Assembly (NCBI RefSeq): GCF_012849095.1
Contig: NZ_CP051680.1
Span: 2,790,001 to 2,854,000 of the forward strand
From: Cohnella herbarum
Lineage (GTDB): Bacteria; Bacillota; Bacilli; Paenibacillales; Paenibacillaceae
DNA length: 64,000 bases
Reading direction: 5' to 3'
Below, in pieces: positions 7,593 through 56,059 of this stretch. Position 1 is the first letter of the stretch; each line of letters starts with the position of its first letter. Under the pieces are notes generated by a model. It saw nothing but the letters and a program-made list of their open reading frames with translations. It searched no databases and was not told where the DNA came from. Made by a program: the position numbers and the translations under genes.

Positions 7593-7668
7593 TGGTGGAC
7601 CTTAGCGGGATCGAACCGCTGACCTCTTCGCTGCCAGCGAAGCGCTCTCCCAGCTGAGCTAAAGGCCC
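7593..7668 (-). tRNA. tRNA-Ala (anticodon GGC)
   Basis: A 76-nt cloverleaf is readable: acceptor GGGCCTT pairs with AAGGTCC (one G-U), the D arm contains AGCTCAGCTGGGAGAGC, the anticodon stem CTTCG/CGAAG encloses loop CTGGCAG with anticodon GGC, and the T arm has GGTTCGATCC. The 3' CCA is encoded. It is a single gene with its own terminator. Confidence 0.95.
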
Positions 7669-31167: not shown

Positions 31168-31176
31168 TTTGTCGAA
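31168..31176 (+). promoter_or_regulatory. Isolated Spo0A-box match
   Basis: TTTGTCGAA is an exact match to TTTGTCRAA and lies about 100 bp upstream of the CBS-chemoreceptor start at 31066. A single nonamer can occur by chance. Confidence 0.25.
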
Positions 31177-31220: not shown

Positions 31221-31775
31221 ACGATGGTTGGTGGAGGCAATAGTGCTGAAATCTGACACTGTGGCTGCTGATCGAAGGTTGGTGGAGGCTATAGTGGTGA
31301 ATTCTGGTACTATCGCGGCTGATCGATGGTTAGTGGAGACTATAGTGGTGAATTCCGGTACTATCGCGGCTGATCGAAGGTTGGTGGAAGCTATAGTGGT
31401 GAATTTTGATACTATGACGTCGGATCGATGGTTGGTGGAGGCAATAGTGGTGAAATCTGGCACTATGGCGGCTGAGCGAAGGTTGGTGGAGGCTATAGTG
31501 GTGAATTCTGGTACTATCGCGGCTGATCGATGGTTAGTGGAGACTATAGTGGTGAATTCCTGTACTATCGCGGCTGATCGAAGGTTGGTGGAGGCTATAG
31601 TGGTGAAATCTGGCACTATGGCGGCTGATCGATGGTTAGTGGAGACTATAGTGGTGAATTCCGGTACTATCGCGGCTGATCGATGGTTATTGGAGGCTAT
31701 AGTGGTGAATTCTGGTACTATCGCGGCTGATCGAAGGTTGGTGGAAGCTATAATGGTGAATTCTGGTACTATGGC
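31221..31775. repeat. Tandem array of eleven 51-bp units
   Basis: The landmark GGTT recurs at 31226 and then every 51 bp to 31736, giving eleven units with only substitutions between them. Each unit contains ATAGT-GGT-GAATTC-TGGT-ACTAT, an imperfect palindrome centred on GAATTC in most copies. Because 51 is a multiple of 3, both strands read open as 17-residue repeats, but neither reading has a ribosome-binding site, and changes between units alter residues (W/R, T/A) freely. I treat it as non-coding repeat DNA. Confidence 0.85.
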
Positions 31776-32074
31776 GTGTCTCTTCCTCCGAATTAACCCG
31801 GATCAGTCGAGCTATTTCCTCCCATAGTGCTAGAGGTAGATCTGATTACTAGACTTCTTACACCTAGATTTGAGAAAGCAATCCATCAAACCATGCGAAT
31901 TCGCCTTTTCAAATATCCCATCAGACATTAATTCTTATCGGAGACCTAACAGAAAAGTATCGAAAATTTATTACTACTTACGTCACATTTTTAGCTGAAA
32001 GAAATGTTCGGCATGGTGGCCTTGACTGGCGGGAAATCTACTTTCAGGCAGGCGTATCTCTTAACTAGAACGCG

Positions 32075-32270
32075 TAAAATAACTGGAAAAGTACAGTTGC
32101 TTTCCTCACTAAATGCCTAAAAATCTAAAATAGATGGATTAATACAGTTGTTTCACTTCCCTAATCGAGCCCAAACGATCGATGGCCGTGAATAAATGTA
32201 GAAATCCATTTATTTGTTCACAAGCAGCTATTAGCAGGAAAAATAACTATATATATATCCATTTATCCCC
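32075..32270. repeat. Degenerate 51-bp-period repeat, AT-rich
   Basis: TAAAATA starts at 32075 and 32126 and ACAGTTG at 32093 and 32144, both 51 bp apart. ATCCATTTAT recurs at 32204 and 32257 (53 bp). Units are unlike those of the array at 31221. The surrounding stretch 31776-32290 holds no gene that I can support. Confidence 0.45.
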
Positions 32271-44869: not shown

Positions 44870-45574
44870 ATGGTTGTGGCCAATGAAGTCTTGATGCCGG
44901 AGGAATTAGCGAAAGTTTATGAGACGTGGATGAACAAGCTACGTTCGAGCAGCACCGGGGAACGCAAAAGAAAATTGTCAAGCACTTCGAACCATGCGGA
45001 GCGAACATTCATAAAACAAGTTTGGTGGCCAGCATTCGGACACTTTACGCACTTGGAAGCCGAGTTCGAAGTAAAAGATTTCAAGGATGGCAAACGCTAT
45101 CTCGATTTCGCTTATATTACTGAGGGGTTTAGAATTTGCATTGAAATCGATGGATTCGGTACTCATTGGAGAGATATCAGCAGATCCCAGTTCGCGGACC
45201 ATCTCATGCGCCAAAACCACCTCATCATTGACGGTTGGTATGTCCTCAGGTTTTCTTATGACGATCTCATCGAACGACCTCGCATTTGCCAACAAATCAT
45301 ACAGCAGATGCTTGGGAAGCTGGGGGCTTCAATCTCTCCTAATGAACTGAAATTGTCTCCTGTTGAACTAGCCATCGTTAGAATGGCTACCTCCCTGTCT
45401 ACCCCAATTACACCGAAATACATCACCAAACAACTAAACTTGCATCGTACCACCATAAGCAGACATATCAAAACTTTAGTTCAAAGAGAAATCTTGATTC
45501 CTTCGAGGACAGACGTTAAACGGGTGTGCAGTTACAGACTTAATAAAGCATTACTCACTAAAATAATTTCTTAG
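44870..45574 (+). CDS. VSR/DUF559-like endonuclease domain fused to winged HTH
   Basis: 234 residues. Residues 45-150 fit the small PD-(D/E)xK fold of Vsr/DUF559: Glu in NHAERTFIKQVWWP, the pair in RYLDFAYITEGFRICIEIDGFGTHW, and the closing WYVLRFSYDDLIERP. Residues 165-230 look like a winged HTH (ITPKYITKQLNLHRTTISRHIKTLVQREIL). No methylase or other defence gene adjoins it. AAAGGTGAG precedes the ATG. A nuclease joined to a MarR-like HTH is uncommon, and its role is unknown. The palindromic array at 45582 starts 8 bp after its stop codon. Confidence 0.75.
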   Translation: MVVANEVLMPEELAKVYETWMNKLRSSSTGERKRKLSSTSNHAERTFIKQVWWPAFGHFTHLEAEFEVKDFKDGKRYLDFAYITEGFRICIEIDGFGTHWRDISRSQFADHLMRQNHLIIDGWYVLRFSYDDLIERPRICQQIIQQMLGKLGASISPNELKLSPVELAIVRMATSLSTPITPKYITKQLNLHRTTISRHIKTLVQREILIPSRTDVKRVCSYRLNKALLTKIIS

Positions 45575-45581
45575 CCGCTCC

Positions 45582-45739
45582 GCCCATTGTCGCGCTTTGC
45601 GACAATGGGCGGGGATTCGTTGGTCTATGCCTCCCCATTGTCGTGTTTTGCGACAATAGGCGGGAATCCGCGGGGCTGAGCCTTCTCATTGTCGCATTTT
45701 GCGACAATGGGCTGGGATCCGCGGGGCTATGCCTCCCAT
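45582..45739. repeat. Three and a half palindromic units, 51-bp period
   Basis: CATTGTCG starts at 45585, 45636 and 45687, exactly 51 bp apart, each time followed by 5-6 nt and GCGACAAT, giving hairpins of 9-12 bp. A fourth unit is cut inside its palindrome at 45739. Flanks such as GGGCTATGCCTCCC also repeat. It lies between the nuclease-HTH gene and the phoP terminator. Confidence 0.85.
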
Positions 45740-55396: not shown

Positions 55397-55523
55397 CTTA
55401 AGGTCCTCCTTGGAAGACACCCGAACGCCTCGGCGCCCGAGCATGCATGGAAAGTAAATTCGCTTTAAAGCTTATTACATGACTCACGTCCAAATCAGCC
55501 GAAAACTCACCCTAAGTTTACGC

Positions 55524-55711
55524 TAGTTGCACATCGTACACCTAATCTTACCCTGAAACCCTTCTTAACTAGCAATAGTTGCAAAAAGTACATTTAGTTC
55601 AGCCAGTCCCGGCGTAATTGCACGTAACCTGAACAACTAATTGCACTTAATACAACTACCTCTGCGAATTCCACTAGTTTACGGAAAATAGTTGCATAAA
55701 ATGCAACTATT
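55524..55711. repeat. Degenerate hairpin array with about 51-bp period
   Basis: TAGTTGCA occurs at 55524, 55576 (+52) and 55689, and TAATTGCA at 55638 (51 bp before the last). The last unit is a perfect hairpin, TAGTTGCA-TAAAA-TGCAACTA (55689-55709); the others are imperfect. It lies between icd and mdh, and with 55470-55523 makes up most of the mdh upstream region. Confidence 0.6.
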
Positions 55712-55779
55712 CATCAAATGTTTGATTTATTTACGAGTTGCGTATCCCATACAGCACTCTCGAGCGCGATACCAGCTCG

Positions 55780-55812
55780 GAAAAAGGCGCGAGCGTGCAA
55801 CAAGCTCGCGCC
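55780..55812 (-). terminator. Terminator downstream of icd
   Basis: GGCGCGAGC and GCTCGCGCC (9 bp, perfect) are followed on the minus strand by TTTTTCC. It lies about 250 bp after the icd stop. Confidence 0.75.
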
Positions 55813-56056
55813 TCCTCTTTCTGCCGGGAAAACCACCGCCCGATTAGGCGCTGGTTCGACTCTCCTCGCTCGCGCACCTGCACCACAAGCTAGCCCCGCC
55901 CCCAACCGCTCGTCGGTAACTGTCTCCGCGAAGGCGGGTGTCCAGAGGGCTGCAAGCCCTTGGAATCCCCCTTGGAAAGGGGGACTTAGGGGGATCGAGC
56001 CCTCCCCGCGACGGGGACACAGGGGTTAATAGCCTCCCCGGCGAGGGGAAAAAGAA
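55813..56056. other. GC-rich non-coding spacer with C/G-run palindromes
   Basis: No gene is supported. The segment holds CCCCCTTGGAAAGGGGG followed by ACTTAGGGGGATC, and two CTCCCC...GGGG palindromes (around 56011-56050). Base composition is markedly richer in G and C runs than the flanking genes. It is the icd 3' untranslated region on the minus strand. Confidence 0.4.
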
Positions 56057-56059
56057 TTT

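Follow-up and report, generated by a model that had tools for sequence, protein, structure and literature searches.

REP/RAYT systems consist of a gene family and its own dispersed palindromes, in which one gene is accompanied by many gene-less copies. A similar arrangement is described here for Cohnella herbarum, in a 64,000-nucleotide stretch of its chromosome (the window; 2.79-2.85 Mb of an 8.52-Mb genome) where palindromes stand in arrays with a 51-bp period and one such array follows the gene for a probable nuclease with a winged helix. RAYTs, however, are HUH/Y1 enzymes that act on single-stranded hairpins, whereas the Cohnella protein is of a probable PD-(D/E)XK plus winged-helix type and its arrays are helix phased. 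Scans of the linked protein against NCBIfam, PHROGs, and Pfam returned nuclease-like and helix-turn-helix (HTH) families, with no Y1/HUH transposase among them. The F-plasmid sopC arrays beside sopB, and plasmid iterons, are also tandem, phased inverted-repeat sites lying by the gene of their binder. They differ in being served by ParB or Rep proteins, in having no nuclease, and in having one site per replicon, while Cohnella carries many arrays and families on one chromosome.

Two groups of nucleases resemble the Cohnella protein in layout. FokI-type enzymes and R.BspD6I have separate DNA-reading and cutting parts, but they lack palindrome arrays and belong to type IIS restriction with methylase partners. 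Homing endonucleases of the I-Bth0305I type join a Vsr-type (EDxHD) core to a separate DNA-binding part, but cut one long allelic site. We know of no phased array associated with a Vsr-like homing endonuclease, and of no system that combines gene-linked palindromes, phased sites, and a Vsr-like core. EDxHD is named as a family in PMC6083498. In searches of open-access papers, which returned PMC3686654 and PMC6006769 among others, the titles and abstract openings listed mention no such arrays and no DUF559-HTH protein with palindromes.

Palindromes spaced by whole helical turns

An earlier reading of the window from its letters alone (the original prediction) held that a 51-bp period is common to four loci with unrelated units, and it called for a genome-wide search at lag 51. 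That enrichment is present. In an unbiased sample of the same genome (60 stretches of 20 kb, 1.2 Mb, sited irrespective of repeats), Tandem Repeats Finder (TRF) reported 97 non-overlapping arrays, 47 with a period of at least 25 bp. Period 51 accounts for 20 of these 47, period 52 for three, and period 102 for one; every other period occurs at most three times, and among the long tandem periods of this genome 51 bp is the most frequent. Of 46 arrays examined in the genome, 24 lie between genes (7 ++, 8 --, 6 +-, and 3 -+, against 77/92/46/54 for background gaps) and 20 lie inside called open reading frames (ORFs) of at least 120 amino acids. These 20 arrays, most of them in frames that stay open from one side of the array to the other, were left out of the orientation classes, and the tally thus accounts for 44 of the 46. 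One of the 20 period-51 arrays (L074) is within a 582-amino-acid ORF.

The array units of this genome group into families by palindrome. Family F1 (GTCGC-N5-GCGAC) recurs with differing spacers, yet 51 bp apart: when distances of 37 to 67 bp were allowed, six Cohnella genomes yielded 208 pairs (46+4+47+63+35+13), 195 of them at exactly 51 bp (44+4+46+59+30+12). A seventh Cohnella genome, G012, yielded no F1 pairs (G000 denotes the window's own genome, other G numbers further genomes, and L numbers the loci examined). Motifs of families F2, F3, and F4 that lie less than 200 bp apart in the 1.2-Mb sample stand at 51 or 102 bp.

What is held constant in these arrays, the sequence or the distance? 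Independent spacings were counted as one per distinct spacer and locus, with spacers less than 60% similar within a locus, giving 75 spacings from 39 loci, among which related species may share history. Forty-two fall at 50-53 bp, 17 at 61-64 bp, two at 41-42 bp, and two at 72-73 bp, with none of the 75 at 43-49, 54-60, or 65-71 bp. The usual step is thus about five helix turns, with four, six, or seven as the exceptions. All 63 spacings between 40 and 75 bp, a range picked post hoc, lie within 2 bp of a multiple of 10.4 bp (chance, 0.47), as do 21 of 21 once the 49-54 class is removed. The 33 distances outside 49-54 bp show a phase concentration of 0.529 at 10.4 bp (probability under a uniform null, 1e-4). 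A free period search over all 75 spacings gave 12.4, which is uninformative because the big 51-bp class scores at many periods. The 12 spacings outside 40-75 bp are 37, 88, 100, 102, 103, 107, 112, 113, 114, 114, 120, and 130 bp. At eight loci of other genera (L344, L345, L348, L350, L362, L377, L384, and L385) the spacers are unrelated, yet the palindromes stand 51-53 or 62-64 bp apart, and sometimes 41 or 72-73 bp. Selection for one helix face would predict whole-turn spacings with unrelated spacers, and slippage would not. These data support the view that the arrays preserve a distance in helical phase and not the sequence of their spacers, and they agree with the proposal that spacing is the quantity selected or generated, which would put the sites on one DNA face.

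Only half of the four arrays originally listed in the window survive as such (Table 1). Lag-51 identity is 0.859 in array 1 and 0.776 in array 2, both far beyond shuffles; array 2 has 3.0 units, not the 3.5 first given. The palindrome of array 1, like CTATAGTG-N11-TACTATCG, recurs at a constant 51-bp step, and this family has a second copy at G000:C1:180247-180444. The palindrome of array 2, an F1 array, is CATTGTCGC-N5-GCGACAATG. As 51-bp arrays the other two loci failed: the lag-51 autocorrelation at 32075-32270 (1.62) equals the shuffled 95% maximum (1.62), and that at 55524-55711 lies under the corresponding maximum. Both hold palindrome clusters instead. The centers of the second cluster are at 55534, 55586, 55648, and 55699 (steps of 52, 62, and 51 bp), and 55445-56059 has 5 sites with at least 11/16 matches, one of them overlapping and off-register, against a maximum of 2 in 500 shuffles. 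Centers in the 32075 region are at 32090, 32141, and 32203 (steps of 51 and 62 bp), with 4 sites of at least 9/12 matches, one again overlapping and off-register, versus a shuffled maximum of 2. Since both motifs were taken from the sequence on which they were scored, these tests are partly circular, and for the 32075 region a real cluster is only suggested. Palindromes of the TAGTTGCA-N5-TGCAACTA type also occur at G000:C1:608306 (L393; a pair 62 bp apart) and at 4275998. Both degenerate loci and the 62-bp pair at 0.608 Mb keep the whole-turn rule. The three palindromes quoted in the original prediction are all present.

Table 1. Repeats and linked gene in the window
Feature	Position	Strand	Basis
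Array 1, 10.9 x 51 bp	31222-31776		TRF, 86% match
Weak candidate cluster, three degenerate TAACTG-N8-CAGTTA-like palindromes	32080-32212		Palindrome scan
Gene for a 234-amino-acid protein, probable PD-(D/E)XK nuclease (N-terminal) plus MarR-like winged helix (C-terminal)	44870-45574	+	
Array 2 (family F1), 3.0 x 51 bp	45583-45737		TRF, 79% match
Irregular phased cluster, four palindromes TAGTTGCA-N5-TGCAACTA	55524-55709		Palindrome scan

A probable nuclease-winged-helix gene in front of many arrays

Array 2 begins 9 bp past the stop codon of the nuclease gene. The N-terminal domain of the encoded protein is probably of the DUF559/MTES_1575/Vsr-like type, and public names for such proteins include very-short-patch-repair endonuclease. 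DUF559 is matched at an E value of at most 0.01 by 22 of 27 aligned sequences, and all 27 share D79, E92-x-D94, H99, and R127, a conserved acidic motif that would form the catalytic site. The winged helix agrees with the MarR fold, and the rows of the structure search (VIA) mostly span residues 159-234. Foldseek gave weak rows for 6p4o (Bax1), 2p14 (BspD6I, probability 0.44), and 8q44 (Can2). Homologues occur in all 37 Cohnella genomes searched (2 to 15 each, with ten in C. herbarum) and, across the order as a whole, in 152 of a sample of 198 genomes. The family has no specific name in the libraries scanned.

Is the neighborhood of gene and array a general one? Association was counted at the best match in 30 of the 37 genomes (L245-274), a set that leans to close relatives, and at 26 other matches, which come from four genomes (L305-330). 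TRF arrays of 49-64 bp are present at 25 of the 30 and 12 of the 26 loci, compared with 1 of 29 loci of homologues of the MCP gene next to array 1 and 19 of 300 3.6-kb segments taken at random from the C. herbarum genome; these are raw counts. Taking strand into account, 32 of the 37 Cohnella loci with an array have it on the 3' side of the gene, beginning -9 to 125 bp past the last sense codon and mostly within 50 bp. Twelve of the 37 have an array on the 5' side and 8 on both sides, and the array of L257 is within the open frame. Periods at full-length loci are 50 (6), 51 (18), 52 (14), 53 (1), 60 (1), and 62 bp (4). The arrays of G012, G047, and G050 (L269, L272, L274, and L239:16374-18623) repeat a GGTGCACC/TGCAC palindrome every 62 bp and not every 51 bp, six turns and not five.

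Within C. herbarum, five families are linked to a homologue: F1 (window), F2 (4.085 Mb, broken gene), F3 (3.418 Mb), F4 (0.954 Mb), and F8 (4.573 Mb). A sixth homologue (4.068 Mb) has irregular palindromes with steps of 51, 61, and 52 bp. Fourteen of 24 unbiased arrays match one of the five linked families above shuffled maxima, two of these being the linked arrays themselves.

Do palindrome and protein change together?

F1-type arrays adjoin orthologues in several Cohnella species, and palindromes in general are similar among close orthologues and different among remote paralogues. Over 39 loci, protein and palindrome similarity correlate (r = 0.349; none of 5,000 permutations as high), and palindrome similarity tracks identity in the winged helix (partial r of 0.246) somewhat more closely than identity in the nuclease part (0.140). 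That the units of different loci share no sequence, as first described, is true at first sight, but the half-sites of nuclease-linked families have positions in common: among 29 distinct half-site families, 21 have an A at a distance of 9 bp from the dyad and 14 have a T at a distance of 10 bp. In all 15 F1 arrays, the palindrome core varies less between units than does the spacer, although units were picked partly by GTCG-N7-CGAC and variation at those eight positions is lowered by this selection. Most neighboring core positions are also low; position +8 is not (0.22).

The gene appears to be more stable in place than the arrays. In nine further Cohnella genomes (G003, G009, G010, G015, G023, G041, G045, G048, and G051) no more than 40 kb separates the best match to the F1 protein from the MCP orthologue, so the F1 gene has been inherited in place. 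Array 1, by contrast, is not conserved at its place in most relatives, which align up to 31170-31176 and, in some cases, again from 32473. A 51-bp array occupies the corresponding gap upstream of the MCP gene in G006 (L291:2942-3171), the sole one among 29 other MCP loci, and its unit has no detectable similarity to that of array 1 (score 8; 137 of 500 shuffles as high). One intergenic place thus holds unlike arrays in two species. In G048 the syntenic place (L253) has a different palindrome, GGCACTTTTTTGGCC, beside a 52% homologue, which implies that site and protein can change together.

How might the arrays be built and used?

We lean toward the view that these are helically phased docking arrays for the nuclease-winged-helix family, several members of which have their own palindrome array behind the gene. 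Judged from the sequences, binding of the palindromes with phasing is likely, and cutting as the origin of the arrays is less likely. A dimer would sit on each palindrome through its winged helices, and steps of whole turns would place neighboring dimers on one helix face. The nuclease domains could then meet across the spacer of ~24-30 bp like the halves of FokI, allowing cooperative assembly and possibly cutting of the spacer. Repair of breaks within the arrays might change copy number, homogenize units, and give rise to new arrays elsewhere. The phased sites for a dimeric chromosome-organizing protein that were originally suggested hold up as to phasing, and dimerization would fit, but the candidate binder is a probable nuclease with a winged helix, encoded beside such arrays, and not a known chromosome-organizing protein.

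Carried further, the proposal is one of "ruler nucleases," a possible but still doubtful class that Cohnella would share with related genera of the order. Such MarR-winged-helix/PD-(D/E)XK proteins would read paired palindromes, be active only at whole-turn spacing, and build, homogenize, and spread their own arrays by cutting and repair, while paralogues diverged in site would leave several orthogonal nuclease-array pairs in a genome. The significance would be 4-fold. (i) An odd repeat becomes a testable two-part system of a widespread nuclease-like family and a physical ruler in the genome. (ii) Some of the minisatellites between Cohnella genes would find an explanation. (iii) Natural orthogonal protein-site pairs with an inbuilt spacing rule could be supplied. 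(iv) Helical-phase selection would be visible from sequence alone.

A number of observations weigh against the docking-array reading. The correlation of protein and palindrome is carried by pairs of more than 50% identity; among less similar pairs r drops to 0.041, with 557 of 2,000 permutations as high. In G022 the orthologue is 69% identical but adjoins no array, and the genome has no F1 pairs, whereas G003 and G009 have F1 pairs and homologues of only 51-52%. A looser F1 pattern gives pairs in 24 of 37 genomes (0-5 per genome with a control pattern), including G013, G004, and G014, whose closest homologues reach only 37-44% identity. Six of the 75 spacings (37, 88, 100, 107, 120, and 130 bp) are at least 3 bp off whole turns, while some of the other long spacings look like sums of two steps. 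The window protein scores under the Pfam cut-offs for DUF559 (17.2 versus 20.6 bits) and MTES_1575 (17.7 versus 38.2), and the PD-(D/E)XK fold proposed for its nuclease part draws on sequence motifs and on structure matches that are weak. In other genera, TRF arrays are found at 9 of 60 loci, one of which (L346) is a plain AAAGA-rich repeat, and a palindrome family is found at 15 of 60 and at none of the other 45 by the method used. Four of the ten C. herbarum homologues have no adjoining array, and one more has irregular palindromes only. Conversely, none of the linked families of the genome is matched by 10 of the 24 unbiased arrays or by array 1; array 1 has no nuclease gene adjoining it and no cognate gene was found for it. 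When these unmatched arrays were compared with 57 linked arrays from all the genomes, no partner was convincing. For array 1, the L330/L047 family was dropped (score 13, equal to the shuffled maximum), as was L252, whose score of 18 (null maximum of 14 in 30 shuffles) looks like the effect of a repeated GGTTGG spacer; a single score of 15 for L086 against the linked arrays (null maximum, 14) was not convincing.

Must the arrays be cut at all? Adjacency, phasing, and core conservation also permit an assembly that does not cut, in which the winged-helix protein forms a filament or loop on the phased sites, centromere-like, for architecture or regulation, and the nuclease core is silent or used elsewhere. 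The position of the array directly behind the gene in most array-bearing loci recalls centromere-type layouts, and the synteny of the F1 gene in nine other genomes is what a host function would give. Invariant catalytic-type residues in 27 sequences are hard to square with lost cutting, however, and it would be unusual for a nucleoid protein to be present in one genome as several homologues whose sites differ. We regard this as a lesser possibility.

It is unlikely, though worth considering, that the system is a selfish, homing-like element that cuts palindromes in array-less alleles or loci, so that repair copies the array (and gene) and dispersed arrays are gene-less satellites. Like arrays flank the gene on both sides in L253, L262, L266, L273, and L325, gene-less arrays exceed genes in the own sequence examined (46 arrays against 5 nuclease frames), broken gene copies occur at L317 and L307, and array 1 was not found at its place in most relatives; the 8 of 37 loci with arrays on both sides are only suggestive in this respect. 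Against homing, the F1 gene keeps its inherited place from one species to another, and no target duplication or empty-site junction has been established. Single F1 targets also look rare, with one isolated site of the flanked motif in 1.2 Mb, although looser motifs have more (isolated sites: F1 9/14, F3 24/36, F2 2/24, and F4 0/12, counts made without comparison to chance). The idea that arrays are seeded by isolated F1 palindromes was rejected on the same single lone site.

Could the arrays be neutral minisatellites, inherited 51-bp units multiplied by slippage or unequal exchange, with an incidental link to the nuclease? The units within an array are similar tandem copies, and local duplication is certain. 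As the whole cause, slippage on different seeds, the other mechanism first proposed, is improbable. It is insufficient alone because non-duplicated clusters with unrelated spacers keep steps of 41, 52, 62, and 73 bp and because the core varies less than the spacer; the link to one gene family, and to its 3' end, also counts against it.

Least probable of all, and barely credible, is that the arrays are transcribed as hairpins (structured RNA) or encode protein repeats of 17 residues: palindromes would give hairpins, 51 bp is 17 codons, 20 of 46 arrays lie in ORFs, and the F1 unit has a register that is open in all 15 of the consensus units from C. herbarum, but that register is open in only 23 of 37 runs in other Cohnella genomes, periods of 50, 52, and 62 bp are not multiples of three, open frames across arrays are near the shuffled level (125 of 234 versus 117 ± 7), F1 spacer variation in other Cohnella genomes is flat by codon position (.221/.219/.233), whole-turn quantization is a property of duplex DNA, and Rfam covariance models at gathering thresholds matched only a tRNA (7596-7668) in the window. 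The protein-coding repeats that the original prediction had named as a refutation are thus not what was found.

Other repeats

Arrays of GTCGC-N5-GCGAC with a 51-bp period also occur far from Cohnella, in the Myxococcales metagenome-assembled genome (MAG) NC_groundwater_781 (L133, L136, L139, L153, L163, L176, L179, L187, and other contigs). They are uninformative on the period because the search pattern demanded 51 bp. No Cohnella nuclease homologue was found in this MAG; across eight genomes with such distant arrays, the nuclease profile matched nothing in seven and gave one partial match (E value, 3.3e-6) in the eighth. Arrays of the MAG type include variant units of 41-42 bp (L187, L192, and L215), and L217:7308-7702 is a separate 52-bp palindrome array.

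Three further kinds of repeat were seen in Cohnella. Another family, with a core like TGAGCGAAAGGGATA, forms tandem arrays whose period is unfixed (43-45, 67, 85, and 110 bp; L068:9994-10250, L069:1641-2380, L229:7521-7630, L134:7634-7785, and L267:1123-1289) and offers a natural contrast to the 51-bp arrays. Cohnella panacarvi has a 50-bp array family (AAATANCTGCGAAT; L220:7606-7779 and L230:4591-4713) that shares loci with nuclease genes and 51-bp F1 arrays. Lastly, near-perfect tandem repeats of 185 bp (L048:7082-7649) and 166 bp (L039:125-481) are present in the genome of C. herbarum itself.
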